25,722 bases of DNA, taken from Patescibacteria group bacterium (GTDB lineage: Bacteria > Patescibacteria > Paceibacteria > UBA9973 > UBA2103). The DNA is taken from positions 1-25,722 of the forward strand of contig JAGWZP010000008.1 in assembly GCA_018968865.1 (NCBI GenBank), given 5' to 3'. The notes under the pieces are model-generated. The model saw nothing but the letters and a program-made list of their open reading frames with translations. It was not told the DNA's origin and ran no database searches. Positions 13,435 to 24,962 of the stretch are shown piece after piece. Every line of letters starts with the position of its first letter. Position 1 is the stretch's first letter. The translations under genes were made by a program, and so were the position numbers.

Positions 13435-13454
13435 GCATTGACATATTCTTGTTG

Positions 13455-13460
13455 TATAAT
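13455..13460 (+). promoter_or_regulatory. Consensus -10 (TATAAT) of the 13470 gene
   Basis: A perfect TATAAT ends 9 nt before ATG 13470. An upstream TTGACA (13438-13443) is only 11 bp away, too close for a standard -35. The -10 position shows that the upstream in-frame TTG at 13449 is not the start. Confidence 0.6.
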
Positions 13461-13469
13461 GCACCTACC

Positions 13470-13679
13470 ATGCTTAGGACCATTTTCTGGGCTCTCGTCC
13501 TCATCCTCGCGCTTTCATTCTTCGGCATTTCCATTCAAGCCATTGTCAACTCTCCCGCCGGCCAGGAGAACTTTACGTATGTGTTCGGTGTTCTCTCTCA
13601 TCTGTGGCAGCTGATTATGCATATAGCCGCGAAGGTCTGGCAGTGGTCTACCTTCTGGGTCCGGCCGCCCGGAGCGTAA
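13470..13679 (+). CDS. Small membrane protein, unknown function
   Basis: A 69-residue protein with an N-terminal transmembrane helix at about 4-27 (TIFWALVLILALSFFGISIQAIV) and a Trp-rich amphipathic C-terminal half (LWQLIMHIAAKVWQWSTFWV). It has a consensus -10 with the start spacing seen elsewhere in the window, which makes a real gene likely. No family is recognised. The hairpin element at 13688-13837 begins 8 nt after its stop. Confidence 0.65.
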   Translation: MLRTIFWALVLILALSFFGISIQAIVNSPAGQENFTYVFGVLSHLWQLIMHIAAKVWQWSTFWVRPPGA

Positions 13680-13687
13680 GGGGAGGC

Positions 13688-13837
13688 GGAAGACTATAGT
13701 GCGCACAATATATCTTTTGCGAACATGCCTCGTGCATGTACGCAAAAGATAGTCGCGATTGTGCGTACGCCCTGCCCCGTAGGCGTACGCACAATCGCTT
13801 TGCGAACATGCCCAGCGCATGTACGCATTCGTCTTCC
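13688..13837. repeat. Fold-back element: three hairpins closed by a 7-bp stem
   Basis: GGAAGAC (13688-13694) pairs with GTCTTCC (13831-13837). Inside are three hairpins. Hairpin 1, 13711-13751, has 11 bp, an A-A mismatch and 6 bp, with loop CTCGT. Hairpin 2, 13755-13798, has a perfect 17-bp stem with loop 13772-13781. Hairpin 3, 13801-13827, has 4 bp, an A-A mismatch and 6 bp, with loop CCAGC. Hairpins 1 and 3 are related copies sharing TGCGAACATGCC and GCATGTACGCA. The element fills the gap between the + gene ending at 13679 and the - ORF ending at 13838. A TATAGT at 13695-13700 could start a transcript into it. It could be a structured RNA, a REP-like repeat or a complex bidirectional terminator. 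Confidence 0.85.
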
Positions 13838-14038
13838 CTACTTCTTTAGCGCGATAATGATGACTTGGCACAAACTGATGAGCGTGCTCATGAACCCCGT
13901 CCAAAATGCGTATATCTGAAGCCGGCTGATGAAATGTTGCTTTCGTCTCATAGTGGAAATCGTACCATACCCTTTCCTGCTCTTTTTGTTGCGCAGCGCA
14001 ATGTCAAGGAGTTGTTTTTGGCTGTAATCGAGCGTCAT
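13838..14038 (-). CDS. Small membrane protein coupled to the LOG gene
   Basis: A 66-residue ORF whose ATG comes 2 nt after the TGA of the LOG-family gene, a spacing that suggests translational coupling. The N-terminal half is polar and basic (YSQKQLLDIALRNKKSRKGYG). Residues about 42-63 form a probable transmembrane helix (IYAFWTGFMSTLISLCQVIIIAL) ending in KK, which suggests the N-terminus faces the cytoplasm or the protein is tail-anchored. No family is recognised. Support comes only from position and composition. Confidence 0.5.
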   Translation of the reverse strand: MTLDYSQKQLLDIALRNKKSRKGYGTISTMRRKQHFISRLQIYAFWTGFMSTLISLCQVIIIALKK

Positions 14039-14040
14039 AG

Positions 14041-14799
14041 TCAGCAGGTAACATTCGCAATGATGTAGTCATACGCCTCATCAACCGTATCAACGAGGGT
14101 ATAGAGCGCCATATCATCCTTGTCGATGGCATGGTGCTCCTCATAAATGGTTGTTTCAATAAAGTCGAGCAGGAGTTGCCAATACTCTTTCCCGAAAAGG
14201 ACGATGGGTATCTTGCGGATCTTCTTGGTCTGCACAAGCGTGACGATCTCGAAGAATTCGTCAAGTGTGCCGAAGCCGCCCGGAAAGTACACATACACCT
14301 CGGAGGCGTACGTGAGCATCACTTTCCGGACAAAGAAATGGTCGAAACCGAATTTCTCGGTGAGATACGGATTGTAGTTCTGCAGTTCCGGCAAATTGAT
14401 ATTCAGCCCGACCGAAGCGCCTCCGACCTCGTACGCGCCTTTGTTCGCGGCCTGCATGATGCCGGAGCTTCCGCCGGTGACGATGGCAAATCCTTTTTTT
14501 GCGAGCCGGCTCGCCAGTTCTTCGGCGCGCTGGTATGACTCGTCGCCGAGCGAAGCGCGCGCGCTGCCAAAAAAGGACACCGCGAGGCCGTAGCGGCGGA
14601 TGATGTCGAATCCTTCGATGAACTCCGACATGATCTTGAACACGCGCCACGATTCTATCTTCTTCGGCTTGCAGACCAGGACTGGGCGCTCTTTCGGCAT
14701 CGTGCGCCCTCCCTCATGGACAATCTGCGCAAGCCGCTCGGTCGCCTCGTGCAGAGCCGGTTGATGAGGCGACGTATCGCGCGTCAGATCTTCATTCAT
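14041..14799 (-). CDS. LOG-family nucleotide 5'-monophosphate nucleosidase (TIGR00730-like)
   Basis: LOG-type proteins hydrolyse nucleoside 5'-monophosphates to base and ribose phosphate; plant and some bacterial members release cytokinins. The 252-residue protein has a Rossmann-type core: VSFFGSARA (75-82), IVTGGSSGIMQAANKGAYEVGG (106-127), the catalytic Arg-Lys in FFVRKVML (R158, K159), and PGGFGTLDE at 173-181 with the active-site Glu after the GT. Residues 1-50 are an extra polar extension compared with the shortest LOG proteins. A -10-like TACAAT lies upstream. The natural substrate cannot be read from sequence; a lysine decarboxylase label, sometimes used for this family, would be wrong. 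Confidence 0.88.
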   Translation of the reverse strand: MNEDLTRDTSPHQPALHEATERLAQIVHEGGRTMPKERPVLVCKPKKIESWRVFKIMSEFIEGFDIIRRYGLAVSFFGSARASLGDESYQRAEELASRLAKKGFAIVTGGSSGIMQAANKGAYEVGGASVGLNINLPELQNYNPYLTEKFGFDHFFVRKVMLTYASEVYVYFPGGFGTLDEFFEIVTLVQTKKIRKIPIVLFGKEYWQLLLDFIETTIYEEHHAIDKDDMALYTLVDTVDEAYDYIIANVTC

Positions 14800-14806
14800 T
14801 CCCCAA

Positions 14807-14812
14807 ATTGTA
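14807..14812 (-). promoter_or_regulatory. -10-like element of the LOG gene
   Basis: Minus-strand TACAAT ends 7 nt before ATG 14799. GGGGA directly abuts the start, too close for a normal Shine-Dalgarno. Confidence 0.5.
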
Positions 14813-14817
14813 GCAGA

Positions 14818-15165
14818 TCAGCGGCCGGCGCAATTCGCGGCAGGAGCATAACCGGCCTCCTGTGCCGCAGAAACCGAAGCGAACCAAATTTTATTCGCAT
14901 CAGAGATGCGATTTGCACCGGCGCAACCCGGTAAATAATATTTGGTGCCGTTCTTTGATGCGACGATCTGTCCAGTGGTTGAACCCGTGTCTGACATATC
15001 GGCGGGAGGGGAGTCGGGAGACCTCGTACTTCCCTCCTGCCCTGCCGCATAACCCAGCCCGAAACTCGCGGAGCAAGCGAGCACGAGCACCGCGATAATG
15101 AGCATATCCCGAGGTATTCTGGCGGCAAGGCTTTTGCATTTTTCGCGCACCTCTGCTATAGTCAT
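14818..15165 (-). CDS. Membrane-anchored protein with an Ada-like metal-binding domain
   Basis: A 115-residue protein. It has a short cytoplasmic start, one transmembrane helix at about 21-41 (MLIIAVLVLACSASFGLGYA), a Ser/Thr/Pro linker, and a C-terminal domain at about 66-113. The C-terminal pattern (GTKYYLPGCAGANRI, then NKIWFASVSAAQEAGYAPAANC) matches the small Ada-type fold seen attached to nucleases and hydrolases. Only two cysteines of that domain remain (Cys81 and Cys112), so full four-Cys zinc binding is not expected. The domain would face outside. No enzyme domain is attached; a DNA- or metal-binding role at the surface is a guess. It is divergent from rpmA over a 20-bp gap. Confidence 0.72.
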   Translation of the reverse strand: MTIAEVREKCKSLAARIPRDMLIIAVLVLACSASFGLGYAAGQEGSTRSPDSPPADMSDTGSTTGQIVASKNGTKYYLPGCAGANRISDANKIWFASVSAAQEAGYAPAANCAGR

Positions 15166-15171
15166 ACGGTA

Positions 15172-15177
15172 ACTATA
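15172..15177 (-). promoter_or_regulatory. -10-like element of the Ada-like gene, overlapping the rpmA -10
   Basis: Minus-strand TATAGT ends 6 nt before ATG 15165. It shares four base pairs with the plus-strand TATACT at 15174-15179. Confidence 0.55.
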
Positions 15178-15179
15178 CT
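15174..15179 (+). promoter_or_regulatory. -10-like element of rpmA, overlapping the divergent -10
   Basis: TATACT ends 6 nt before ATG 15186. The two facing -10 elements occupy one 8-bp site in the middle of a 20-bp intergenic region. Confidence 0.55.
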
Positions 15180-15185
15180 CGTTTT

Positions 15186-15458
15186 ATGGCATCAACCAAG
15201 GCCGGCGGTTCGGCAAAAAACCTCAACGATTCAAATCCGAAGTACCTCGGCGTGAAGCTCGCCGACGGCGCGGCCGCCCGCCCGGGCATGGTCATCGTCC
15301 GCCAGCGCGGTACCAAGATAGAGGCGGGCACAAACGTGCGGGTCGGCCGCGACCACACGCTGTTCTCCATCGCTACCGGCACCGTCTCCTACCGCACGCG
15401 CCGCAAAACCAACTTCACCGGCCGCATCATCGCCAAGAAAGTCGCGGACGTTCTCTAA
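15186..15458 (+). CDS. rpmA: 50S ribosomal protein L27
   Basis: bL27 reaches the peptidyl-transferase centre with its N-terminal tail. The 90-residue protein begins MASTKAGGSAKNLNDSNPKYLGVK and contains IVRQRGTKIEAGTNVRVGRDHTLFSIATG, the family signature. The short N-terminus without a cleavable extension is the Gram-negative-like form, so no Prp-type protease processing is expected. Its usual partner rplU is about 9 kb away on the other strand, so the common rplU-rpmA pair is split. The stop overlaps the stop of the convergent gene by three bases (CTAA read both ways). Confidence 0.95.
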   Translation: MASTKAGGSAKNLNDSNPKYLGVKLADGAAARPGMVIVRQRGTKIEAGTNVRVGRDHTLFSIATGTVSYRTRRKTNFTGRIIAKKVADVL

Positions 15459-15895
15459 TTCAATTTATCGTTCCAGTAATACGCGAGGATGGCGCGTCCC
15501 GGCATGACCAAGGGATGCCGCGCGATGACGTGCGTTATCGAGTCGTTGCTGATGGCGCTGTTTCCCAGACAAAAACCGATATGCCGGTGTTCTCCCCGGC
15601 TCTCACGATCCCAGAGCATCAGCGCCCCTTTGCGGGGCCCTTTAATTTCATACCAACCTGATTCTTCCGCGTCACGCAGCATGCCGGCGACGGTGGCGTG
15701 CCGTTCCCGGACAAGATCGAACAAATATAAAATGCCCGTGACATACGACGCGCAAGAAAGGTTGCCGTCCTCGAGCACGTCAACCGTTTCGCCGTCGATG
15801 CGGAAATACAGGTTCCGGAACAGGTGCGAACCGATGCTGTTCTCGATCGTCGTTATGTAGGAAAGAAAAAAGTCGAGTTCCGGTTTCCCTTTCAT
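15455..15895 (-). CDS. Small cysteine-hydrolase-like protein (possible NlpC/P60 or CHAP fold)
   Basis: A 146-residue protein without signal peptide. The pattern NLSCASYVTGILYLFD places Cys48 at the start of a helix, and RKGALMLWDR then EHRHIGFCLGNSAISNDS places His105 at the start of a beta strand. That order (Cys at helix start, then a small domain, then His on a strand) is that of papain-like NlpC/P60 and CHAP hydrolases; a third polar residue could be Asn113 or Asn117. The substrate is unknown, and absence of a signal peptide argues against a secreted murein hydrolase. It starts 3 nt after the rplI stop, so it is likely co-translated with L9. The family call is inferred from the motif pattern only. 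Confidence 0.6.
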   Translation of the reverse strand: MKGKPELDFFLSYITTIENSIGSHLFRNLYFRIDGETVDVLEDGNLSCASYVTGILYLFDLVRERHATVAGMLRDAEESGWYEIKGPRKGALMLWDRESRGEHRHIGFCLGNSAISNDSITHVIARHPLVMPGRAILAYYWNDKLN

Positions 15896-15898
15896 GAA

Positions 15899-16345
15899 CT
15901 ATGCTTCCGCTTCTATCGTGATGGAGAATTTCCCGAACACCTCGCCGGCGGATACGGGGACATCGAACACGCCGAGCTCCTTGATCGGCCGTTCAAGCCT
16001 GATCGCGTCCAGCGGAAGCTCGATATGCGCCTGTTCCCGCGCCGCTTTGAGGATGTCATGTGCGCCGACTGCATCATAAAGATGCCCTTTTTCGTTCGCT
16101 TTCACCTTGATGACGATGCTTGCAGCGGCGAGCGACGCGATGTTCTGCGCAATGAGCGCGGCATCAATCAACGCGTGGTCGGCCGACTGTTTGCGGCGCA
16201 CCTCCGCCTCTTTCATCGCCGTCGGCGTTGCCGCGATAGCGAGCTTTTTCGGGATGAGGAAATTAAGCGCATAGCCGTCGGCAACGACAAGCGCGTCATG
16301 CGCGCGCCCCAGCCCCTTTACATCTTTGTTTAGGATGATTTTCAT
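15899..16345 (-). CDS. rplI: 50S ribosomal protein L9
   Basis: bL9 binds 23S rRNA and extends away from the ribosome. The 148-residue protein begins MKIILNKDVKGLGRAHDALVVADGYALNFLIPKKLA, the N-terminal domain signature. A connecting helix and a C-terminal domain (LYDAVGAHDILKAARE...LERPIKELGVFDVPV) follow. ATG 16345 is chosen over an in-frame upstream start because MKIIL is the family beginning. It lies downstream of the PaaX/Cas2-like gene on the same strand, with palindrome A in the 61-nt gap. No clear -10 of the kind seen elsewhere stands before it, so it may depend on upstream transcription or on the palindrome region. Confidence 0.94.
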   Translation of the reverse strand: MKIILNKDVKGLGRAHDALVVADGYALNFLIPKKLAIAATPTAMKEAEVRRKQSADHALIDAALIAQNIASLAAASIVIKVKANEKGHLYDAVGAHDILKAAREQAHIELPLDAIRLERPIKELGVFDVPVSAGEVFGKFSITIEAEA

Positions 16346-16387
16346 GTATGGCCAGCTTACTGCATCCAAATGCATTAATCAACTGTT

Positions 16388-16417
16388 CCTTAGTGTAACC
16401 TATAGGTTATCGTAAGG
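16388..16417. promoter_or_regulatory. Palindrome A (30-bp dyad), candidate operator upstream of rplI
   Basis: Outer arms CCTTA (16388-16392) and TAAGG (16413-16417) flank a perfect 14-bp core TAACCTATAGGTTA (16396-16409), with three unpaired bases on each side. It overlaps the stop codon of the PaaX/Cas2-like gene and precedes rplI. The same layout recurs at 17008-17037. Confidence 0.75.
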
Positions 16418-17003
16418 AAATCTCTGGTATGCGAAAATGTCCGCGAAGATCCTTGTCGGACTCAAGAGCTTCTGCGACGAAATAACGCATTTCTCCTACG
16501 CCGCTCTTCAGATGCGCGCGAACGAGCGAGACAAACTCGTCACAGGGATATGGATATATCCAGACACTATCCTGCAGACGGACAAATCCTTGACCTTGTA
16601 AAAGGCGCCGGAGCTGGACGCGAATGCGCCGGCGCCGCTCAGTGATGTCAAAGACAAGTACGCGCCACTTACCGTCCCAGAACGCCGGTTCAGGTATCGC
16701 ATACTCCTGAAATTCAATCTGCCGTACTATCTCCAGCCCTTTCCCGGTTATGGTGACTCTGCGTTTCGCGTACTCGCCGGACACTGCTACGAGACCGGCT
16801 TGTTCCAATCGGCTGATTCCCTGTGCAATACGGCGATAGAGCTGGGCGCGATTTTTCGCGGGCCGGTCTAGTTCTTTCAGCAGCCGCGTCATCTTCGGCG
16901 CGATAAGCGCCACGCTGACGACCCCCATCGCCGCCAACGAGCGCAGGAGCAAATTTTTCATTGGCACGCGTTTCCGTTTCCGTCTTTTCCTTTCTGTTTC
17001 CAC
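16407..17003 (-). CDS. PaaX-like regulator: winged helix plus Cas2-fold C-terminal domain
   Basis: A 198-residue protein from GTG 17003, or 184 from ATG 16961. Residues 1-14 are almost all basic and a hydrophobic patch follows (17-34). Residues about 52-98 read as a winged helix (YRRIAQGISRLEQAGLVAVSG then RRVTITGKGLEIVRQ). Residues 111-180 match the Cas2-like domain of PaaX proteins: GKWRVLVFDITERRRRIRVQ with Asp119, then GFVRLQDSVWIYPYP. No cas1, no repeat array and no effector are nearby, so CRISPR adaptation is unlikely. Palindromes at both ends of the gene suggest DNA binding and autoregulation. GTG fits a -10-like TACGAT 8 nt upstream; ATG 16961 has no such signal. Confidence 0.75.
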   Translation of the reverse strand: METERKRRKRKRVPMKNLLLRSLAAMGVVSVALIAPKMTRLLKELDRPAKNRAQLYRRIAQGISRLEQAGLVAVSGEYAKRRVTITGKGLEIVRQIEFQEYAIPEPAFWDGKWRVLVFDITERRRRIRVQLRRLLQGQGFVRLQDSVWIYPYPCDEFVSLVRAHLKSGVGEMRYFVAEALESDKDLRGHFRIPEISLR

Positions 17004-17007
17004 TTTA

Positions 17008-17037
17008 CCTTATCGTATCCTATAGGCGACAGTAAGG
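17008..17037. promoter_or_regulatory. Palindrome B (30-bp dyad), candidate operator of the PaaX/Cas2-like gene
   Basis: Outer arms CCTTA (17008-17012) and TAAGG (17033-17037) surround a core centred on CCTATAGG (17019-17026), in the same 30-bp spacing as palindrome A; 23 of 30 positions agree. It starts 5 nt upstream of the GTG and overlaps the -10-like bases (TATAGG, TACGAT on the minus strand), as expected for a repressor operator. Confidence 0.75.
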
Positions 17038-17166
17038 TGAAGCCGTTATCAACAAGAAGCAAGAAGACGGTGCCTCGTTCGTAGAGACGTTCGCCAAGAA
17101 CGCAGCGAGAGGACAGTAAGCTGGTGGTGATTAAATGCAACCCTACCTGCCTTGGTTTATGAGCGA

Positions 17167-18426
17167 CTAGCGGTCATACGTCAAAAATTGGATGGCGCGC
17201 GCCATTTGCGGGTCTACTTTAGGTGTTGTGGTAGCGCCGGGAGCGTTGTATGCAACGGTGATGTCTGGCGTCACGCCGTTGCCCATAATCCAGTGGCCCG
17301 CGGGAGTAATCCAGCGCGCGACCGTGACCTTGAGCGAGCCGCCATCAAGGTCCAGGAGCGTCTGCACCGAGCCCTTGCCGAACGATTTCGTGCCGATAAG
17401 CGTCGCGGCGTGATTATCCTGAAGCGCACCCGAGAGGATCTCGGAGGCGGAAGCGGACCCGCCGTCGATGAGTACGACAATCTTCGTCCCCGCCGGAACA
17501 TCGTCATAGCCGAGGCTCGTGTGCACGTTATTAGGTTCCTTGCCGCCGAAGTCCTCCGTCACGATGGTTGCGCCTTTCGGGAGGAAGTGGCTCGCGATAT
17601 CAACCGCCGCATCCAAATAGCCGCCCGGGTTGCCGCGCAGGTCAATGACGAGCTTCTTTGAACCGGAGGCTTTGAACCGCGCGAAGGCCTGGTCAAACAG
17701 GTCCGCGGAATTAGACGTGAATTCGTAGAGCGCGATGTGGTAGACGCCGCTTGCCGCATCCAGACCGTCATCCGTCTCGGGTACCTGAATAATCTCGCGG
17801 ACGACCTTGATATCGAGCGGCTTCCCATTCCGTACAATGGTGAAGTCCACCGTCGTCCCGACCGGCCCGCGGATCTCGGCCACCGCGGCGTCGGTGGAAA
17901 TCCCGTCCGTCGTCTTGCCGTTGATGGCGGCGATCTGATCGCCCGCCTTGATGCCGGCCGCTTCCGCCGGCGTTCCCTTCAGGGGAGCGATGACGGTTAG
18001 GACGTCATTCTTCACGTCAATTTCCATGCCGACGCCCGCAAAGCTCCCTGAAATATTGTCGGCGAACGCCTTCGCCTGCGTCGGCGGGAAGAAGACGGTA
18101 TACGGGTCGCCGTAGGAGGAGGCGAGGCCGCTGATGGCGCCGAAAATGCGGTCCTTGGCCGACGGGAGCGTGGACGAGGCGTGCGTGATGACGTAGTTGG
18201 CGTCAAGCGCGTTCCATGCTTCCCAGAAATCGGTGAGGTCAGCGCTCTGGTCGGGCGTCGCGTCAAGCTGATTGCCGATGAGCGGGATGTGCGCGACGAG
18301 CGAACTGGAGGAGGTGCCGCCGCCCACGATGAGTCCCGCGCCAAAGGAAAGCGCGGCGACGAGCGCGAACGAGATGCCGCGCGTGACGATGCCCGAGGTG
18401 CGGCGGTGCGTGCGTTCCGATTCCAT
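17167..18426 (-). CDS. S41-family C-terminal processing peptidase (CtpA/Prc-like) with PDZ domain
   Basis: An exported serine protease of 419 residues that cuts C-terminal tails. A basic start and one hydrophobic helix at about 16-37 form a membrane anchor. A PDZ domain spans about 128-210 (GSFAGVGMEIDV, AAGIKAGDQIAAINGK). The peptidase core has LVIDLRGNPGGYLDAAVDIA (259-278), the serine motif GGSASASEI with Ser326, and Lys351 in SFGKGSVQT, 25 residues on, the usual dyad spacing. ATG 18426 is preferred over more upstream in-frame codons because a TACACT lies 7 nt before it and the upstream part would overlap the divergent corA promoter. Substrates are unknown; envelope protein processing is typical. 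Confidence 0.93.
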   Translation of the reverse strand: MESERTHRRTSGIVTRGISFALVAALSFGAGLIVGGGTSSSSLVAHIPLIGNQLDATPDQSADLTDFWEAWNALDANYVITHASSTLPSAKDRIFGAISGLASSYGDPYTVFFPPTQAKAFADNISGSFAGVGMEIDVKNDVLTVIAPLKGTPAEAAGIKAGDQIAAINGKTTDGISTDAAVAEIRGPVGTTVDFTIVRNGKPLDIKVVREIIQVPETDDGLDAASGVYHIALYEFTSNSADLFDQAFARFKASGSKKLVIDLRGNPGGYLDAAVDIASHFLPKGATIVTEDFGGKEPNNVHTSLGYDDVPAGTKIVVLIDGGSASASEILSGALQDNHAATLIGTKSFGKGSVQTLLDLDGGSLKVTVARWITPAGHWIMGNGVTPDITVAYNAPGATTTPKVDPQMARAIQFLTYDR

Positions 18427-18433
18427 CTTGCAG

Positions 18434-18439
18434 AGTGTA
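18434..18439 (-). promoter_or_regulatory. -10-like element of the S41 peptidase gene
   Basis: Minus-strand TACACT ends 7 nt before ATG 18426, in the 33-bp gap shared with corA. Confidence 0.5.
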
Positions 18440-18447
18440 GCATATGC

Positions 18448-18453
18448 TATCCT
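18448..18453 (+). promoter_or_regulatory. -10-like element of the CorA-like gene
   Basis: TATCCT ends 6 nt before ATG 18460. Back-to-back with the S41 -10, eight bp apart. Confidence 0.45.
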
Positions 18454-18459
18454 AGATCT

Positions 18460-19380
18460 ATGATATTTCGGCATGAGTATCGTGGCGGGGTTTGGATAGA
18501 CCTTGAACAGCCCACGGCAGATGAGATACGGCAAGTCGCAAAGGAGTTTTCAATCAATGAACGCCTCGAGCAGGAACTGCTCTCCCCCACTCCGACTCCG
18601 CTCGTCGCGAACGAAGGAGGCATGGCGCTCCTGGTGCTCCACTTCCCCTCCCACGGCGCCGAAGACGGCGTTACTGAAAACCAGGAAGTTGATTTCATCG
18701 TGGGTTCGAACTTCATCTTGACGGTGCGTTACGAAGTGATTGCGCCGCTCCATCACCTGCAGAAACTCCTCGAGGCCCAGAGAATGGTCTCCGGACACGC
18801 CGCCGTCACAACCGACGTCATGCTGGAGGTCCTCTTTGCGCATCTCTACACATCCGTACACGACCACACGAACCACATCGTGAGCCATCTCGCGCGCATC
18901 GAACGGGATATGTTTGACGGCGCGGAGCGTAAGACGATACTTTCCATCCTGCAGGTCACCCGGGAATTCCTGCATATGGAAACCGCGCTCGCGGACCAGG
19001 AGGAGCCGCTCGACCACTTCCTCTCCATACTGTCGCGGAAAGAATTCTTCGGCGAACCGTTCCTTGAGCGTAGCGGGCGCATGCTCACGCAACGGACGCA
19101 GATTGAGCGGCTCGTGGAAACTCACCGCGCCATCGTGACCGAACTCCGCGAGACGAACATCGCGCTCCTTGAAGCGCGCCAAAACGAAATTATGAAGACG
19201 CTCACGGTCATCACGTTCAGCGTGCTGCCGCTGGAGCTCCTCGCCCTCATTTTCGGCATGCACCTGCCGGGAACGCCCTTTGAGCAAAGTCCGAATGCGT
19301 TCTGGGTTCTCATAACGGTCATGCTCGGCATCGTCGGCCTCATGACGCTCTTTTTCGCGCGGAAGCGCTGGATCTTTTAG
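18460..19380 (+). CDS. CorA-like divalent metal ion channel with GMH in place of GMN
   Basis: A CorA-type Mg2+/Co2+ channel of 306 residues. The N-terminal cytoplasmic alpha/beta domain (WIDLEQPTADEIRQVAKEF, VDFIVGSNFILTVRYE) leads into a long coiled helix (HIVSHLARIERDMF to LEARQNEIMKTLTVITFSVLPLELLALIFGMH). Two C-terminal transmembrane helices follow, at about 248-266 and 278-298, ending in basic RKRW. The pore-entrance signature, normally GMN, reads Gly266-Met267-His268. ATG 18460 gives a family-like start and fits the -10; a longer in-frame extension to 18181 runs antisense through the S41 gene and is rejected. It is the only transporter in the window. Ion choice is uncertain because of the changed motif. 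Confidence 0.87.
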   Translation: MIFRHEYRGGVWIDLEQPTADEIRQVAKEFSINERLEQELLSPTPTPLVANEGGMALLVLHFPSHGAEDGVTENQEVDFIVGSNFILTVRYEVIAPLHHLQKLLEAQRMVSGHAAVTTDVMLEVLFAHLYTSVHDHTNHIVSHLARIERDMFDGAERKTILSILQVTREFLHMETALADQEEPLDHFLSILSRKEFFGEPFLERSGRMLTQRTQIERLVETHRAIVTELRETNIALLEARQNEIMKTLTVITFSVLPLELLALIFGMHLPGTPFEQSPNAFWVLITVMLGIVGLMTLFFARKRWIF

Positions 19381-19528
19381 CGTATGCCCGGTAGGTCAAC
19401 ATGGCATCATGTCCCTGCTCCAACCGTGATTTGCATGATATGCGCCAACAGTACATTATGAACAATATGAATCGGATTGAAACGTCTGACACGAGGAGTA
19501 ATGCCATGTTGTCCTAACCGGGTATGCG
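19381..19528. repeat. Fold-back element with 27-28-nt terminal inverted repeats before cysS
   Basis: 19381-19407 is complementary to 19501-19528: 23 Watson-Crick pairs, two G-T pairs, one T-T mismatch and one bulged A. The 93-nt interior can extend the stem through CAACCG (19421-19426) with CGGATTG (19473-19479) and other partial pairings. It begins at the first base after the corA stop, and its right arm contains the ATG at 19524. In an mRNA the arm would cover that start codon. It could be a MITE-like insertion or a structured leader of cysS. Confidence 0.85.
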
Positions 19529-20978
19529 ATGGCTCGCGCGCATCTTCGGAAAACACAAGGGTATGGCGCCGCCGCCGCGGATTTTCTTCACCAACACGCT
19601 CTCGAGTACTAAAGAGCTTTTCATAGCACAGCGCCCCGGCGTCGTCACCATGTACTCCTGCGGACCGACGGTCTACGGGAGCGCGCACATCGGGAACTTG
19701 CGTCCCTACGTGTTCTCGGACACGATTGCGCGCGTCTTGAGCGCGGCAGGGTACCGCGTGCAGCGCGTCATTAACATTACCGACGTCGGCCACCTCACTG
19801 GCGACGGCGACTCTGGAGAAGATAAAATGAATATCGGCGCGGCACGCGAGAAGACGACGCCGAAGGCGATCGCCGACCGCTACACGAAAGAGTTCATTGA
19901 CGATCTCTCCGAACTCAACATTAATACGGACGATATCCGGTTCCCGCGCGCGACCGACTACATCCAGGAGCAAATCGCCTTCGCCAAGACGCTTGAGGAG
20001 AAAGGGTTCGCGTATCGCATCGCGGGCGGACTCGCCTTTGATACGTCCCGCTTTCCGGGCTACGGCAGGCTCGGAAACATTGACGTGTCCGCCCAGCGAG
20101 CCGGCGCGCGCGTAGAAGCGGATCCCGAGAAACGGCATCCGTCGGATTTCTGGCTGTGGCGAATCGCGAAGCCGGGCGACCTCCAGCAGTGGGACTCTCC
20201 GTGGGGCCGCGGAAATCCGGGCTGGCACATTGAGTGCTCCGCGATGAGCCGTGCGCTTCTCGGGAAAGAGATTGATATCCATACCGGCGGCGAGGACCAC
20301 ATCGCGACCCACCACAACAACGAACTCGCACAGTCCGAAGCGGCGTCGGGGCGGACGTTTGTGCACTACTGGATGCATAACGCGTTTCTCACCGTTGAAG
20401 GCCAGAAAATCTCAAAGTCACTGCACAATGACATTTACTTGAAAGACGTTGTCGCGAAGGGATTCTCCCCGCTCGCGCTCCGCTATTTCTTCCTCCAGGC
20501 GCACTACCACACGCCGATTTCTTTCTCGTGGGACGCGCTCGCGGGCGCCGAAAGCGCGCTTGAACGGCTCCAGCGGCTTGCGCGCGACATCGCCGAAGAA
20601 TCCAAGCGCAAGGCCTCCGCTTCCGAAGCGCGCGAACGTTTCCTCGCGGCGCTCCGCGACGACCTCGCGACGCCGGCGGCGCTCGGCGTCCTCTGGGAAT
20701 CACTCCGGAGCGAGGATTATGCGCCCGAAGAAAAATGGGGGCTCCTCGAGGACGCCGATGCGCATCTCGGCCTCTCCCTTCTTTCGCCGCCTGGGCAGGG
20801 CGCCATCAGCGAGGCGCAGCTGCCGGAGAAGATACGGGATCTGCTCGCGCGCCGCGAAGCGGCGCGCGCCGCCTCGGATTTCGCGGAAGCCGACCGCATC
20901 CGGAGCGAGATTGAGCACGGGGGATATCATGTGGATGACGGGCCAAACGGCCCCGTAGTAGCCCGGACGACTCTTTGA
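19524..20978 (+). CDS. cysS: Cysteinyl-tRNA synthetase
   Basis: Class I synthetase charging tRNA-Cys; 484 residues from ATG 19524 or 471 from ATG 19563. VTMYSCGPTVYGSAHIGNLRPYVFSDTIAR carries zinc ligand Cys46 and HIGN at 55-58. WHIECSAMS and GGEDHIATHHNN supply the other zinc ligands. The KMSKS loop is KISKS at 295-299. The C-terminal helical domain includes the EAD-type ending ASDFAEADRIRSEIEHGGYHVDDGPNG. The usual family start (short lead into the NTL motif) fits 19563; the 19524 start adds an amphipathic basic 13-mer and lies inside the inverted repeat. dnaB follows 14 nt after the stop. Confidence 0.95.
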   Translation: MRWLARIFGKHKGMAPPPRIFFTNTLSSTKELFIAQRPGVVTMYSCGPTVYGSAHIGNLRPYVFSDTIARVLSAAGYRVQRVINITDVGHLTGDGDSGEDKMNIGAAREKTTPKAIADRYTKEFIDDLSELNINTDDIRFPRATDYIQEQIAFAKTLEEKGFAYRIAGGLAFDTSRFPGYGRLGNIDVSAQRAGARVEADPEKRHPSDFWLWRIAKPGDLQQWDSPWGRGNPGWHIECSAMSRALLGKEIDIHTGGEDHIATHHNNELAQSEAASGRTFVHYWMHNAFLTVEGQKISKSLHNDIYLKDVVAKGFSPLALRYFFLQAHYHTPISFSWDALAGAESALERLQRLARDIAEESKRKASASEARERFLAALRDDLATPAALGVLWESLRSEDYAPEEKWGLLEDADAHLGLSLLSPPGQGAISEAQLPEKIRDLLARREAARAASDFAEADRIRSEIEHGGYHVDDGPNGPVVARTTL

Positions 20979-20984
20979 TACAAT
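20979..20984 (+). promoter_or_regulatory. -10-like element of dnaB
   Basis: TACAAT directly follows the cysS stop and ends 8 nt before ATG 20993. This rules out the in-frame TTG at 20975 as a start. Confidence 0.55.
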
Positions 20985-20992
20985 CAGCGGCA

Positions 20993-22351
20993 ATGGCATC
21001 CGCCGATCGTGTCCCGCCCCAGTCGCTTGAGTCCGAGCGCGCGCTTCTCGGCGCGCTTCTCCTCAAGCCCGATGCCGTCCACGACGTCTCGGACCTCATC
21101 AGCGCCGACTCTTTCTATGCGGAAAAGCATCGGCTCATCTTCGGCGCGATGCGCGAGCTCGCCGAGCGCGGCGAGCCGATTGACCAGCTGTCCCTTTCGG
21201 AGCGGCTGCAGAACCAGGGACTGCTTGAGCGCAGCGGCGGCAGGAGCTACCTTGCCGAGCTCGCAGGTTCGGCGCCGTCCCCCGGCAATTTCCCCCACTA
21301 CGCCGAGCTCGTCTCGCGCAAGTATTTGATGCGTTCCCTAATCGATGCCGCGTACACCATCAGCGAATCCGCATACGACGATGCGCGCGAAACGATGGAA
21401 GTCCTGGACGAAGCCGAGAAAAGCATTTACGCCATCGGCAACGCCTCCGCCGCACACAAGTTCACGGCCATCGGCGATAAAATCCATGCGGCATGGGAGC
21501 GCATTGAAGCGCTGTCGCATAAAGAAGACGGTATCCGCGGCGTCCCCTCCGGCTTCCCTTCCCTGGATAATCTGCTCTCGGGCTTCCACCCCTCCGACCT
21601 CGTCATCCTCGCGGCGCGGCCGAGCATGGGCAAGACGTCGCTCGCACTTGATATCGCGCGGAACGCCGCGGTGCGCCACAACGTCCCCGTCGGCATCTTC
21701 TCGCTTGAAATGAGTTCAGAACAGCTCATTGACCGCATGCTCGCGGCGGAATCGTTCGTCAACTCCTGGAAACTGCGCACCGGCCAGGTGAAGGACGAAG
21801 AGGATTTCAACCGCATCCGCGACGCGCTTGAGACGTTGTCCAAGGCGCCCATCTACATTGACGACAAGCCGGGCAATAACATTCTCGCGATGCGCGCGGT
21901 CGCGCGCCGGCTCAAGCGCGAGCGCGGCATCGGCCTCATCGTCGTGGACTACCTCCAACTCATGGCGCCGACCTCCACCAAGGCCTCCGATTCTATGGTG
22001 CAGCAGGTGACCGAGATCTCCCGCTCGCTCAAATCGCTCGCCCGCGAGCTCGAGGTGCCGGTTATCGCGCTCTCCCAGCTCTCGCGCGCAGTGGAACAGC
22101 GCGGCGGCCGGCCCCGCCTCAGCGACCTGCGCGACTCGGGCTCCATTGAGCAGGATGCGGATGTCGTGATGTTCATTCACCGCGAAGACAAGCGCGACCC
22201 CAACAGCGACCGGCCGAACATCGCCGAGATACTCATTGAAAAGCACCGCAACGGCCCGACCGGGAAGACCGAACTCTACTTTGATGAAAAGCGCGCCACG
22301 TTCCAGCCGGTGGACACCGCAGGCTACGGCGAGCTCGCGCAGGAATTCTAG
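20993..22351 (+). CDS. dnaB: Replicative DNA helicase DnaB
   Basis: Hexameric 5'-3' helicase of the replication fork; 452 residues, normal length, no intein. The N-terminal primase-contacting domain starts PPQSLESERALLGALLL and includes FYAEKHRLIFGAM. The RecA-type domain has GVPSGFPSLDNLLSGFHPSDLVILAARPSMGKTSLALDIA, with Walker A around 208-216. The segment GIFSLEMSSEQL, the Walker B IVVDYLQLM at about 316-324, and SRAVEQRGGRPRLSDLRDSGSIEQDAD complete the family marks. The start is fixed by the -10 at 20979-20984. It lies between cysS and recR on one strand and ends just before a 147-nt folded element. Confidence 0.96.
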   Translation: MASADRVPPQSLESERALLGALLLKPDAVHDVSDLISADSFYAEKHRLIFGAMRELAERGEPIDQLSLSERLQNQGLLERSGGRSYLAELAGSAPSPGNFPHYAELVSRKYLMRSLIDAAYTISESAYDDARETMEVLDEAEKSIYAIGNASAAHKFTAIGDKIHAAWERIEALSHKEDGIRGVPSGFPSLDNLLSGFHPSDLVILAARPSMGKTSLALDIARNAAVRHNVPVGIFSLEMSSEQLIDRMLAAESFVNSWKLRTGQVKDEEDFNRIRDALETLSKAPIYIDDKPGNNILAMRAVARRLKRERGIGLIVVDYLQLMAPTSTKASDSMVQQVTEISRSLKSLARELEVPVIALSQLSRAVEQRGGRPRLSDLRDSGSIEQDADVVMFIHREDKRDPNSDRPNIAEILIEKHRNGPTGKTELYFDEKRATFQPVDTAGYGELAQEF

Positions 22352-22358
22352 AAATGAA

Positions 22359-22505
22359 GCGAGTACACGATTTTGAGGGCTCTCGGAGGCGAAGCAGCAT
22401 GGTAATTTCGGCGCCGGGGGGTAGCTGCGCTGAAATTTGCGAGCCGAGAGCGAGCGCACTTGCCCGCTGGGCAAGTGACGCGTACCTCAAAATAGTGTTG
22501 CTCGC
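22359..22505. repeat. Fold-back element with three-way-junction shape between dnaB and recR
   Basis: The closing stem P1 pairs GCGAG (22359-22363) with CTCGC (22501-22505), CAC with GTG, and ATTTTGAGG (22370-22378) with CCTCAAAAT (22485-22493). Arm P2 pairs GCTCTCGG (22379-22386) with CCGAGAGC (22444-22451) and is extended by AATTTCGGCG (22404-22413) with CGCTGAAATT (22428-22437). Arm P3 is CACTTGCCC (22457-22465), loop GCT, GGGCAAGTG (22469-22477). P1 and P2 are contiguous. It fills the dnaB-recR spacer and ends 7 nt before the recR ATG. No known RNA family is recognised. Confidence 0.85.
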
Positions 22506-22512
22506 GTAATGT

Positions 22513-23115
22513 ATGGATAAGATCGACGAACTCGCCACCGCGCTCGCCCGCCTTCCCGGCATCGGTCCGCGCCAGGGGAAACGGTTCGTGTATTTCCTCC
22601 TCGCCTCCCCCGCCGCGGAGCGCACGAAACTCGCCGAGCTCATCCTTTCCTTGGGCAAAGACGTCCGCCAATGCCCCGACTGCCTTCGTTTCCACAACGG
22701 CACTACGGCGGCGCTCTGCCAGTACTGCACCGACCCGCGGCGCGACGATACCCAGCTCCTGCTCGTGGAAAAGGACCAGGACCTCGCGGCCGTGGAGCGC
22801 GCCGGCACCTACAAGGGCCGCTACTTCGTTCTCGGCGGCGTGCTGACCCTCACCGGTAAGGGCGCCATCCGCGAGAAAGAACTGGTGAAAGCGGTGGAGA
22901 AGCGCCTGAAAGACAACCTGGGCGAAGTCGTGCTCGCGCTCTCGGCGACGAGCGAGGGCGAGCATACGGCCGACCGCGTGCGCGAACTGCTCCTGCCCTA
23001 TCGCGACCACCTGAAAATTTCCATACTCGGCCGCGGCCTCGCGACCGGCAGCGAACTGGAGTACTCCGACGCCGAGACGCTCCGCGCCGCGCTCACCAAC
23101 CGCAAGGAGGCATAA
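22513..23115 (+). CDS. recR: Recombination mediator protein RecR
   Basis: RecR acts with RecO (and RecF) to load RecA at gaps. The 200-residue protein has an N-terminal helix-hairpin-helix (LARLPGIGPRQGKRFVYFLL). A C4 zinc finger follows (Cys54, Cys57, Cys69, Cys72; CPDC and CQYC). Then comes a Toprim domain (TQLLLVEKDQDLAAVERAGTYKGRYFVLGG) and the C-terminal GRGLATGSELEYSDAETLRAAL. Length is typical. It has no clear -10 of its own in the standard position because the folded element at 22359-22505 occupies the upstream region. A strong hairpin terminator follows at 23120-23141. Confidence 0.96.
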   Translation: MDKIDELATALARLPGIGPRQGKRFVYFLLASPAAERTKLAELILSLGKDVRQCPDCLRFHNGTTAALCQYCTDPRRDDTQLLLVEKDQDLAAVERAGTYKGRYFVLGGVLTLTGKGAIREKELVKAVEKRLKDNLGEVVLALSATSEGEHTADRVRELLLPYRDHLKISILGRGLATGSELEYSDAETLRAALTNRKEA

Positions 23116-23119
23116 AGCA

Positions 23120-23141
23120 AAAGCACCCGCGCGGGTGCTTT
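23120..23141. terminator. Bidirectional hairpin terminator between recR and the helicase gene
   Basis: A perfect 22-bp palindrome (AAAGCACCC, GCGC, GGGTGCTTT) begins 5 nt after the recR stop and 21 nt after the stop of the convergent helicase gene. T-rich tails follow on both strands (TGCTTTTG and TTGCTTTA), so it can end both transcripts. Confidence 0.85.
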
Positions 23142-23161
23142 GCTTTTGTGAAATGGTTTGT

Positions 23162-24493
23162 TTAGTACCGCTCCTGGACGAAGGTCAGCGCCTTGCCCTT
23201 CTTGTCGGCGCGGCCGGTGCGGCCGATGCGGTGCACATAGTCCTCGTACGTGGACGGAAGGTCGTAGTTGATGACGTGCGAGACGGCGGGAATATCAATG
23301 CCGCGCGCCGCGACGTCGGTCGCGACAAGCACGCTCACCTTCCCCGCCTTGAAGGCCTCCAGGGCCCGCTGGCGCGCGCCCTGCGTCTTATTGCCGTGGA
23401 TGCTCTCCGCATGGATGTGGAGGCGCGACAGCGCCTTGGCGAGCTTCTCCACGCCGAACTTCGTGCGGCCGAAGACGAGCACCTTGCTGAAGTCGCGGTC
23501 CTTGAGCATCTCGGCGAGCACCTCAAATTTGTCCTTCCCGCGCGGGATGCGGACGACGTCCTGGTCCACGGATGACGGCGTGTCGCGCGTCTTGACCGAG
23601 ATGATGACGGGGCTTGAAAGGAAGTCGCCGATGAGCCGCTCAATGTCCTTCCCCATCGTCGCCGAGAAGAAGAGCGTGTGGCGCTCCTTGCGCATCTTGG
23701 AAAGAATCATGCGCATATCGTCGATGAAGCCCATGTCCAGCATGCGGTCCGCCTCGTCGAGAACGACCGTGCCGAAGCTTGTGAGGACGAGCGCCTTGCG
23801 TTCCATCAGGTCCTTGAGGCGTCCCGGCGTGCCGATGACGAATGCCGGATCGTGCCGAAGCTGGGAAATCTGCGGGCCGATGTTGGCGCCGCCGACCGCG
23901 ACCATGCCGCGGAAGCCGAGCCCTTTCGCGAAGCCGGCAAGCTCCTTTTCTATCTGCACCGCGAGCTCGCGCGTCGGCGCCATGATGAGGATGCGCTCCC
24001 CTTTCTGCTTCATCACCTTATCAATGAGCGGGATGAGGAAAGCGGCGGTCTTGCCGGTGCCGGTCTCGGCGAGGCCGACGACGTCCTGGCCAAGCAGAGC
24101 GTGCGGAATGGCCTTGTCCTGAATCGGCGTCGGGTGCTCGTACTTGCGCGCGATGATGTTCGCCTTCAGGTGCGCGTTGATGTCAAAATCGGAGAACTTG
24201 TGCTCCGGCACGAAGACCGGCTCCGAGGTCGTCACGACTGTTTTGTTCATAAACTTGGAGATTTCTGCTTCGGTCTCGCCGAAGGAGCCGAAGCCTCCGC
24301 GGCGCGCCGGAGCGCGACCGCGACTGCCGAAGCCGCCGCGTGAGCCGTAGCCGCCCTTAGACGGGAAACGGCTCGGTCCGCCGAACCCGCCGCGCCCGGC
24401 AGCCGGGCGCGGCGAATACGGCCGGTTTGACCCGCCTTTGCTATGCGAGGAGCTTCCCCCCGCTGACTGATGATTCCATCTTCCTATTTGCAT
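23162..24493 (-). CDS. DEAD-box ATP-dependent RNA helicase with an N-terminal Gly/Arg-rich tail
   Basis: A 443-residue RNA helicase for unwinding structured RNA or ribosome assembly. Residues 1-70 are low-complexity and rich in Gly, Arg, Ser and Phe, with GFGSRG and RGGFG repeats. The core follows with a Q-motif region (YEHPTPIQDKAIP, 118-130), AETGTGKT (142-149), PTRELA (173-178), TPGRL (222-226), DEAD (246-249), SAT (277-279), ATDVAARGIDIP and HRIGRTGR near the end. The protein stops directly after the second RecA domain, so no C-terminal RNA-binding domain exists and the tail has effectively moved to the N-terminus. Compare RhlE/CshA-type helicases. A 121-nt folded element lies 32 nt upstream. 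Confidence 0.94.
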   Translation of the reverse strand: MQIGRWNHQSAGGSSSHSKGGSNRPYSPRPAAGRGGFGGPSRFPSKGGYGSRGGFGSRGRAPARRGGFGSFGETEAEISKFMNKTVVTTSEPVFVPEHKFSDFDINAHLKANIIARKYEHPTPIQDKAIPHALLGQDVVGLAETGTGKTAAFLIPLIDKVMKQKGERILIMAPTRELAVQIEKELAGFAKGLGFRGMVAVGGANIGPQISQLRHDPAFVIGTPGRLKDLMERKALVLTSFGTVVLDEADRMLDMGFIDDMRMILSKMRKERHTLFFSATMGKDIERLIGDFLSSPVIISVKTRDTPSSVDQDVVRIPRGKDKFEVLAEMLKDRDFSKVLVFGRTKFGVEKLAKALSRLHIHAESIHGNKTQGARQRALEAFKAGKVSVLVATDVAARGIDIPAVSHVINYDLPSTYEDYVHRIGRTGRADKKGKALTFVQERY

Positions 24494-24503
24494 TGTGTAT
24501 TAG

Positions 24504-24509
24504 TTATTA
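24504..24509 (-). promoter_or_regulatory. -10-like element of the helicase gene
   Basis: Minus-strand TAATAA ends 10 nt before ATG 24493; a second TAATAC at 24502-24497 is too close. The element lies outside the folded region 24526-24646, so the fold would be upstream of this start site unless transcription reads through from rplU. Confidence 0.4.
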
Positions 24510-24525
24510 CGCACAAATTTACGAG

Positions 24526-24646
24526 AACGCTGTCAAAAAGTTCAGATACAAGGCACGGGAAAGCAATTTCTGCAGGCGTACTTTGAGGTACGGCGGAAGA
24601 AATTGCAGGGCTCCCGTAACGCAGTATCTGGAGTTTTTGGCGCGTT
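24526..24646. repeat. Long imperfect hairpin between rplU and the helicase gene
   Basis: The outer arms pair AACGC (24526-24530) with GCGTT (24642-24646), CAAAAA (24534-24539) with TTTTTG (24634-24639), and CAGATAC (24543-24549) with GTATCTG (24624-24630). Further in, ACGGGA (24555-24560) pairs with TCCCGT (24612-24617), and CAATTTCT (24564-24571) pairs with AGAAATTG (24598-24605). The apex holds GTAC repeats. Small symmetric internal loops separate the helices. It overlaps the last bases of rplU including its stop codon, so it could be a rplU 3' structure, part of a readthrough leader of the helicase, or a repeat insertion. Confidence 0.85.
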
Positions 24647-24962
24647 ACCCTATTGAGTCAATTTTGATCTTGAGGATCGGCTGGCGGTGGCCGCGGCGCT
24701 TGTAGTAGCGGCTCTTCGGCTTGTACTTCACCACCTCGACTTTCTTATCCAATCCGGCGAGAACAACGGTGCCCTTGACCTCCGCGCCCTTGATAAGCGG
24801 CGCGCCGATGGTCGTGTCCGAGCCGTTGTCCACGAGGAGCACCTCGCCAAAGACAACCGTGTCACCCTTCTTCAAGTCCCCCGGGAGCTTCTCAATAGCG
24901 ATAGTGTCGCCTTTGGAGACGACATACTGCTTCCCGCCGGTCTTGATTACGGCCACTTCCAT
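24645..24962 (-). CDS. rplU: 50S ribosomal protein L21
   Basis: bL21 binds 23S rRNA. The 105-residue protein begins MEVAVIKTGGKQYVVSKGDTIAIEKL and ends with the typical basic KYKPKSRYYKRRGHRQPILKIKIDSI. ATG 24962 is chosen because MEVAVIKTGGKQY is the family start and a TATATT lies 9 nt upstream; the longer in-frame extension passes through the terminator hairpin. Its usual partner rpmA is elsewhere in the window on the other strand. The last codons lie in the 24526-24646 fold. Confidence 0.95.
   Translation of the reverse strand: MEVAVIKTGGKQYVVSKGDTIAIEKLPGDLKKGDTVVFGEVLLVDNGSDTTIGAPLIKGAEVKGTVVLAGLDKKVEVVKYKPKSRYYKRRGHRQPILKIKIDSIG

Follow-up and report, generated by a model that had tools for sequence, protein, structure and literature searches.

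Four fold-back elements between the genes of a Patescibacteria contig: a probable dif array, a start-codon miniature element, and two repeat families anchored at stop codons that keep their fold

Very small genomes might be expected to be poor in repeats, and a contig of a Patescibacteria group bacterium (GenBank assembly GCA_018968865.1, contig JAGWZP010000008.1; GTDB lineage Paceibacteria, UBA9973, UBA2103) raises the question of what the fold-back stretches are that fill four of its gene boundaries within 11 kb. The DNA analyzed, called the window below, is the stretch of 25,722 nucleotides from position 1 of this contig, read on the forward strand, and the four elements are numbered E1 to E4 in the order in which they lie. 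They comprise a dif array, a miniature inverted-repeat transposable element (MITE) placed at a start codon, and two families of repeats, anchored at stop codons, in which the fold is retained. The explanation that best accounts for all four together, to which a probability of about 0.6 is given, is that E1 is a dif region and E2 a MITE inserted at a start codon, and that E3 and E4 are non-autonomous, stop-adjacent repeats resembling ERIC elements and MITEs whose folding has been preserved.

Four folded boundaries of different kinds

A first-pass annotation of the window, made from its letters alone, had claimed that four gene boundaries are occupied by fold-backs, and comparison with dinucleotide shuffles bears this out. 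For the elements placed at 13688 (E1), 19381 (E2), 22359 (E3), and 24526 (E4), coordinates that are correct within 1–2 bases, RNA folding gave z-scores of −10.5, −7.6, −6.0, and −9.0, and DNA parameters gave −11.4, −3.6, −6.9, and −7.9, respectively; with either set of parameters, none of 200 shuffles of any element folded as well as the native sequence. The accompanying statement that most spacers are shorter than 60 nt also holds, since, in 25 loci that cover 509 kb and were annotated with a simple open reading frame (ORF) caller, 385 of the 598 spacers were at most 60 nt long, with a median of 30.5 nt. In the same 25 loci, rather than in a whole genome, the anticipated excess of folding spacers over shuffled sequence was found: 27 of 137 spacers of 90–320 nt, a count that includes intrinsic terminators, had z < −5, compared with 1 of 137 after shuffling and 3 of 99 coding windows. 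In the window, this caller did not pick up the spacers in which E1–E3 lie.

The elements had further been described as sharing architecture without evident common sequence. When E1–E4 were compared with each other by BLAST, the best match between different elements was 14 nt long (E 0.058), and a search of the window with the Rfam 15 covariance models (E up to 1) matched a tRNA as the sole hit and none of the four elements. Because they have no common sequence, unlike targets, and unlike conservation, a single class comprising all four can be ruled out. The idea of structural elements tolerant of sequence turnover survives within E3 and within E4, where helices are maintained by changes on both sides, and fails for the four as one class. 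A start near a stop codon, ascribed to each element, applies to three of them: E1 begins 8 nt past the stop of a small ORF (13449–13679), E2 immediately past the corA stop, and E3 7 nt past the dnaB stop, whereas E4 begins near a start codon, its left end lying 32 nt from that of deaD (minus strand) and the rplU stop standing at its opposite end (Table 1). What the four would have in common is their location, as unlike fold-back elements that occupy gene boundaries, the only free room in a very compact genome.

E3 and E4 as dispersed repeats beside stop codons

The relatives used for comparison were 80 loci around dnaB whose DnaB proteins are 65–95% identical, the closest being among the 17 named Ca. 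Kaiserbacteria, of which the window is a relative (individual loci are cited as L numbers); counts at the genome level refer to 105 genomes of the family or 397 of the order. BLAST with the window copies found relatives of E4 in seven of eight genomes, three of the eight having been preselected for matches, and relatives of E3 in 11 of 32. Alignments of 23 copies of E4 and 22 of E3 were used to derive RNAalifold structures and, from these, the covariance models R1 (E4) and R2 (E3), which also show a route by which such repeats could be annotated. In the family, R1 gave 234 matches in 43 of 105 genomes, with up to 34 in a single 0.6-Mb genome, and R2 gave 85 matches in 30 of 105; the match totals are sums of per-genome tables, and stricter filters were applied for the genome counts, the E-values of both models being rough. 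In the order, E4 is present in at least 97 of 397 genomes, with nine candidates scored per genome. E3 and E4 are therefore dispersed repeat families. Neither was found in the literature searched, whose coverage leaves out most subscription journals, and within the same coverage no paper joined Kaiserbacteria with 'inverted repeat' and 'intergenic'.

At the two boundaries compared, the elements are mostly lacking. E4 adjoins rplU in the window and in 2 of 69 relatives (L028 and L064), a count that was redone after many rows of the first survey had displayed the stretch before rplU rather than its 3′ end; a crude pattern also flagged L060, where R1 has no match. Between dnaB and recR, R2 detects E3 in the window and, among 79 relatives, only in L008; the gap is at most 32 nt in 60 of the 79. 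By eye, the 56-nt dnaB-recR spacer of L011 resembles a remnant, and the corresponding spacers of L066 (139 nt) and of L021, L054, and L075 (75–82 nt) look fold-back-like with other sequence, so more fold-back families probably exist.

Placement was studied in hand-picked copies that favor copy-rich genomes, namely 103 of the 234 E4 matches (100 loci, without the window copy) and 43 copies of E3 (42 of the 85 matches plus the window copy). Host ORFs were called by length only (at least 70 codons for E4 placement), and some may be spurious. In 79 of the 103 E4 copies, an ORF on the opposite strand has its stop codon between −11 and +10 nt from the 3′ end of the element, compared with 23 of 103 for a same-strand stop equally near the 5′ end, and E4 thus has a preferred orientation relative to the stop. 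For E3, one end is adjacent to a stop codon (2–15 nt) in 25 of 43 copies and the other end in 13 of 43. The preference for positions just after stops that the annotation had put up for testing holds strongly for one end of E4 and also for E3; it does not extend to E2, which is found at start codons. The families listed among the 79 E4 hosts include ribosomal proteins S15 (six) and S10 (four) and peroxiredoxin (three), with L31, L32, RpoC, DnaX, AtpE, and FtsA at two each. Some gene ends carry E4 in one genome and E3 in another, as seen at rpsA, khpA, rpmE, and an ABC-transporter gene (names read from translations).

Adjacency to stop codons and strong hairpins are what would be expected if E4, and E3 with it, were transcription terminators or nucleoid sites, a reading that is nevertheless highly improbable. 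On neither strand is the E4 copy of the window followed by a T run, and a separate terminator-like hairpin lies within 80 nt beyond 30 of the 79 stop-anchored E4 copies (3 of 79 after shuffling); as a rough background, 19 of 141 long ORFs have such a hairpin within 80 nt of the stop. In L064, moreover, the order is rplU stop, E4, terminator, and in distant relatives the terminator follows the stop directly. The L064 arrangement and the 30 downstream hairpins led to the rejection of E4 as a terminator, and leave the first-pass suggestion of termination sites unsupported for E4. Where it lies between stop codon and terminator, E4 would be part of the mRNA 3′ end. It is proposed that E3 and E4 constitute two non-autonomous ERIC/MITE-like families beside stops, with E4 favoring one orientation and frequently preceding a terminator-like hairpin; that both may be transcribed; and that their fold may be kept for a role at the mRNA 3′ end, in protection or processing.

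The arms of E3 and E4 vary from copy to copy yet stay complementary. Helix columns in the RNAalifold structures have changed on both sides in 26 of 34 cases for E4 and 39 of 52 for E3, and the arms of a given copy pair better with each other than mixed arms do (beyond the 95th percentile of mixtures) in 95 of 103 E4 and 38 of 43 E3 copies. Among copies beside the same gene, which may be independent insertions, the outer arms of E3 have 72 double changes (69 still Watson-Crick) and 11 single ones, with 29.6 doubles expected if changes were independent; those of E4 have 72 double (58 still Watson-Crick) and 22 single changes, with 34.9 doubles expected. After insertion, the elements would thus have been kept folded by paired changes in both arms.

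The strand on which the fold is maintained can be judged from wobble pairs and from folding energies. On the displayed strand, G.T pairs outnumber A.C pairs 197 to 35 in E4, or 67 to 11 when the count is limited to the 23 columns with at least 80% Watson-Crick pairs, and 30 to 7 in the inner helices of E3, whereas in the E3 outer arms both are rare and about equal in number (17 and 18 among 780 cells). These counts lean toward the displayed strand, on which the columns were derived; the energy comparison is independent of the columns, and by it the displayed strand gives a stronger fold than the complementary strand in 102 of 103 E4 and 41 of 43 E3 copies. In the window, it is likewise the plus strand of E4 that folds better.

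Two other accounts of these helices have to be weighed, both rather unlikely. Paired changes could arise by template switching at quasi-palindromes, in which the arms are rewritten from each other irrespective of functional selection and would therefore remain complementary whatever their sequence. The equal rarity of G.T and A.C in the E3 outer arms fits this account, as does the preponderance of double over single changes there; however, E4 and the inner E3 helices have a wobble bias of the kind that folding of a single strand would give, and the conserved loops would need a different cause. Alternatively, E3 and E4 could be ancient, immobile structured RNAs of the host, regulatory or processing elements of 3′-untranslated regions whose copies arose by slow duplication or convergence. 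Such RNAs would be expected to have most helix columns changed in pairs, conserved internal loops, and a wobble bias to one strand, as found for E4 and the inner E3 helices, and the spread of E4 over the order and its reuse of housekeeping genes (rpsO in six genomes, rpsJ in four) would also be accommodated. Against this stand the boundaries that are empty in most relatives (E4 at rplU in 2 of 69, E3 at dnaB-recR in 1 of 79) and the strand of the structure, which is antisense to the abutting gene.

The explanation preferred here, of mobile repeats maintained in folded form, has several observations to contend with as well. The better-folding E4 strand is antisense to the gene next to whose stop E4 stands, which is hard to square with a role in that gene's mRNA, and a hairpin beyond the element is no commoner than chance for E3 (3 of 26, compared with 2 of 26 shuffled), which makes the terminator association uninformative for that family. 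None of the mobilizing enzymes sought tracks E4 in the seven genomes with at least 11 E4 matches, and no target duplication could be demonstrated for E3 or E4. Their mobility is supported by dispersal and by boundaries that carry the element in some genomes and lack it in others, rather than by an empty site with a duplication, and E3 and E4 may have moved by transposition.

The candidate enzymes were rejected individually. Y1_Tnp is found in 61 of 105 genomes and yet is missing from five of the seven richest in E4, and Y1/RAYT mobilization was rejected on this ground; a reverse transcriptase is found in 30 of 105 genomes and in one of the seven; and DDE_3 (PF13358), sought for IS630-type (RUP) mobilization, is in none of 18 genomes, the seven included. 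A TA target duplication, suggested by eye for E4, found no support either: only 22 of 102 copies have TA at the paired end or directly beyond it, and for E3 the figure is 0 of 43. As a separate observation, the Y1_Tnp (PF01797) matches number up to nine per genome, and many are in open frames of about 220–260 codons.

A more far-reaching proposal would regard E3 and E4 as a convergent, codon-anchored fold-back system of the order, in which unrelated families stand beside the stops of housekeeping genes, with E4 oriented and often between stop and terminator, are interchangeable at the same gene, and pass on pairing rather than sequence. This is considered unlikely. If it were true, placement would require a mechanism that senses the sites at which translation stops, for E3 and E4, and starts, for E2.

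E2 at a start codon and E1 at a dif-like site

The insertion of E2 can be read from an empty site. In the relative L030, which reads ttttagCGTATG and then the gene, the corA stop, CGTATG, and the cysS frame are uninterrupted, whereas in the window ttttagCGTATG is followed by 136 nt, a second TATG, and then cysS. The duplication together with an empty site is demonstrated at this one site. The terminal inverted repeats, CCCGGTAGGACAACATGGCAT and ATGCCATGTTGTCCTAACCGGG, have ends that are conserved among copies, and matches to these ends occur in 9 of 105 genomes, with at most five per genome, some of which are the two ends of one copy. All nine distinct copies found by regular expression end on the ATG of an ORF of 192–484 codons, among them rnc-like and mreB-like genes (names read from translations), and are flanked by TATG on both sides in seven cases, CATG on both sides in one, and CATG and TATG in one. 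This count leaves out copies with other ends, whose flanks, read by eye, are CATG on both sides in L130, CATG and TATG in L129, and TATG on both sides in L131 and L136. No long copy that might represent a parent transposon was present among the end matches, in a search that was not exhaustive.

E2 would thus be a miniature element with inverted repeats whose insertion at TATG duplicated this target, and because of the duplication cysS keeps its start codon. Among the four elements, the first-pass suggestion of non-autonomous fold-back mobile elements is most directly upheld for E2, by the empty site; it gains support for E3 and E4 from their distribution, and does not apply to E1. In copies of E2 (e.g., window 19495–19526), a GAGGAG-like stretch stands a few nt ahead of an internal ATG, whose short frame overlaps the host start; where translational coupling formerly linked the genes, E2 may provide a ribosome-binding site.

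E1 contains a motif with the layout of a chromosome-dimer resolution site. Its dif-like site fits an 11-bp arm, a 6-bp center, and an 11-bp arm, the 11+6+11 layout given for dif in the sections of PMC5357621 that deal with it, and the arms are named XerC and XerD by analogy with E. coli dif. With one mismatch or fewer, the 20-nt core is found once in 86 of the 105 family genomes, never twice, and not at all in 19, and the core read backwards, as a control pattern, has no matches. The motif is thus a likely marker of the terminus for these 86 members. GC skew has no clear switch in the window, and gene strand changes near 13.7 kb. As an observation on gene order, dif is codirectional with dnaB in the window, L001, L027, and L045 but runs against it in the remaining dnaB loci in which dif was found; the terminus region therefore seems to have been inverted between lineages.

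Next to dif, the window and some relatives carry further dif-like sites. The 55 rows compared represent 48 distinct regions, in 10 of which an inverted XerD arm accompanies dif (nine by regular expression, including the window, and L358 by eye). When the ten arrays are aligned, the flanks of the XerD arm covary with those of its inverted copy. At the inverted XerC arm, six of the ten have ATTGT and four have ATTTT, a weak match. Only the window, L004, and L358 have a third, direct site that is evident by eye. That E1 is merely dif with chance hairpins alongside would suit the 38 of 48 regions that have no array; it is improbable given the inverted XerD arm and covarying flanks common to ten loci and a fold z-score of −10.5.

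E1 would accordingly be a Xer/dif resolution site followed by inverted dif half-sites, and it resembles either the folded attachment site of an element mobilized by Xer recombination (IMEX) or a scar that such an element left behind. The feature of IMEX attP sites present in E1 is an inverted pair of dif-like sites that folds as a single strand. The weak inverted XerC arm in four of the ten arrays tells against an attachment site, as does the lack of phage or plasmid genes in a Pfam-type scan of the adjacent genes, which returned a HhH-GPD DNA glycosylase, a small ORF without Pfam match, and a lysine-decarboxylase/LOG-like gene.

Table 1. Coordinates of the four elements and their component sites in the window.
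Feature	Position	Strand	Basis
E1, fold around and after dif; closing stem GGAAGAC/GTCTTCC and three hairpins, 150 nt	13688..13837	+	Fold z RNA −10.5, DNA −11.4
Dif-like site: XerC arm AGTGCGCACAA, center TATATC, XerD arm TTTTGCGAACA	13698..13725	+	20-nt core single-copy in relatives
Inverted dif-like site with 11-nt instead of 6-nt center (CGCAAAA GATAGTCGCGA TTGTGCG)	13741..13765	-	Sequence; inverted XerD arm near dif in 10/48 regions
Third dif-like site, direct, short center (CGCACAATCGCTTTGCGAAC)	13788..13807	+	Sequence; by eye similar only in L004, L358
Left TATG of target duplication	19383..19386	+	L030 comparison
E2 insertion, 136 nt, terminal inverted repeats of ~25 bp	19387..19522	+	Empty site in L030; relatives with same ends
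Right TATG of target duplication; ATG is the cysS start codon	19523..19526	+	L030 comparison, ORFs
E3, three-helix element between dnaB and recR	22358..22506	+	R2 139.5 bits (window copy in training set)
E4, one long hairpin whose internal loops are conserved; lies between rplU and deaD (both minus)	24525..24646	+	R1 108.9 bits (window copy in training set)
rplU (ribosomal protein L21) stop codon, at E4 3′ end	24645..24647	-	ORFs

Elsewhere in the window, similar palindromes centered on CTATAGG lie at both ends of a PaaX-like regulator gene (16386–16419 and 17007–17038, the second recognized by eye), and these may be operators of that gene.

Relation to known systems

Strand-specific hairpins near gene ends are familiar from REP/RAYT systems and from integron attC sites, the latter also standing after stop codons, and E4 is like both in this respect. 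It differs from REP/RAYT in that the Y1 transposase does not track it, and from attC, in a comparison made by description only, in that its hosts are single housekeeping genes rather than cassettes.

E1 shares with the dif/XerCD system, as outlined in parts of PMC5357621, its layout and its occurrence as one copy per genome, and differs in that some genomes add inverted dif half-sites and the window also a third direct site. In the account of CTXphi in the same source, two inverted attP sites make a fold of about 150 bp, and E1 is similarly a fold of about 150 nt made of inverted dif-like sites, a likeness of architecture only; unlike that attP, E1 is chromosomal, adjoins dif, and has no recognizable phage genes among the neighbors scanned.

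Bacterial MITEs, which include Correia/NEMIS and RUP in the portion of PMC2229807 concerned with them, are comparable to E2 in being short, with terminal inverted repeats, target duplication, and several copies; E2 is set apart by its target, a start codon preceded by T or C ((T/C)ATG), and by the failure to find a parent transposon. The ERIC elements of enterobacteria (IRU/RU-1), described there as 127-bp intergenic, multi-copy stem-loops of paired ends whose orientation alters their effect on mRNA, have in common with E3 and E4 the stem-loop of paired ends, the intergenic site, the multi-copy state, and the relevance of orientation. E3 and E4 differ in belonging to another phylum, in arms that vary between copies yet remain paired, and in tight anchoring to stop codons; TA ends are unsupported in E4, and the comparison with ERIC is one of description.

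By the features tested, E3 and E4 are not members of the ERIC or other MITE families as these are characterized in PMC2229807, and E2, E3, and E4 are close in kind to them. A group of very small genomes thus has several families of folded repeats at its gene ends, and their stop anchoring, orientation, and paired arms make it testable what keeps palindromes palindromic and whether such elements act at mRNA 3′ ends.

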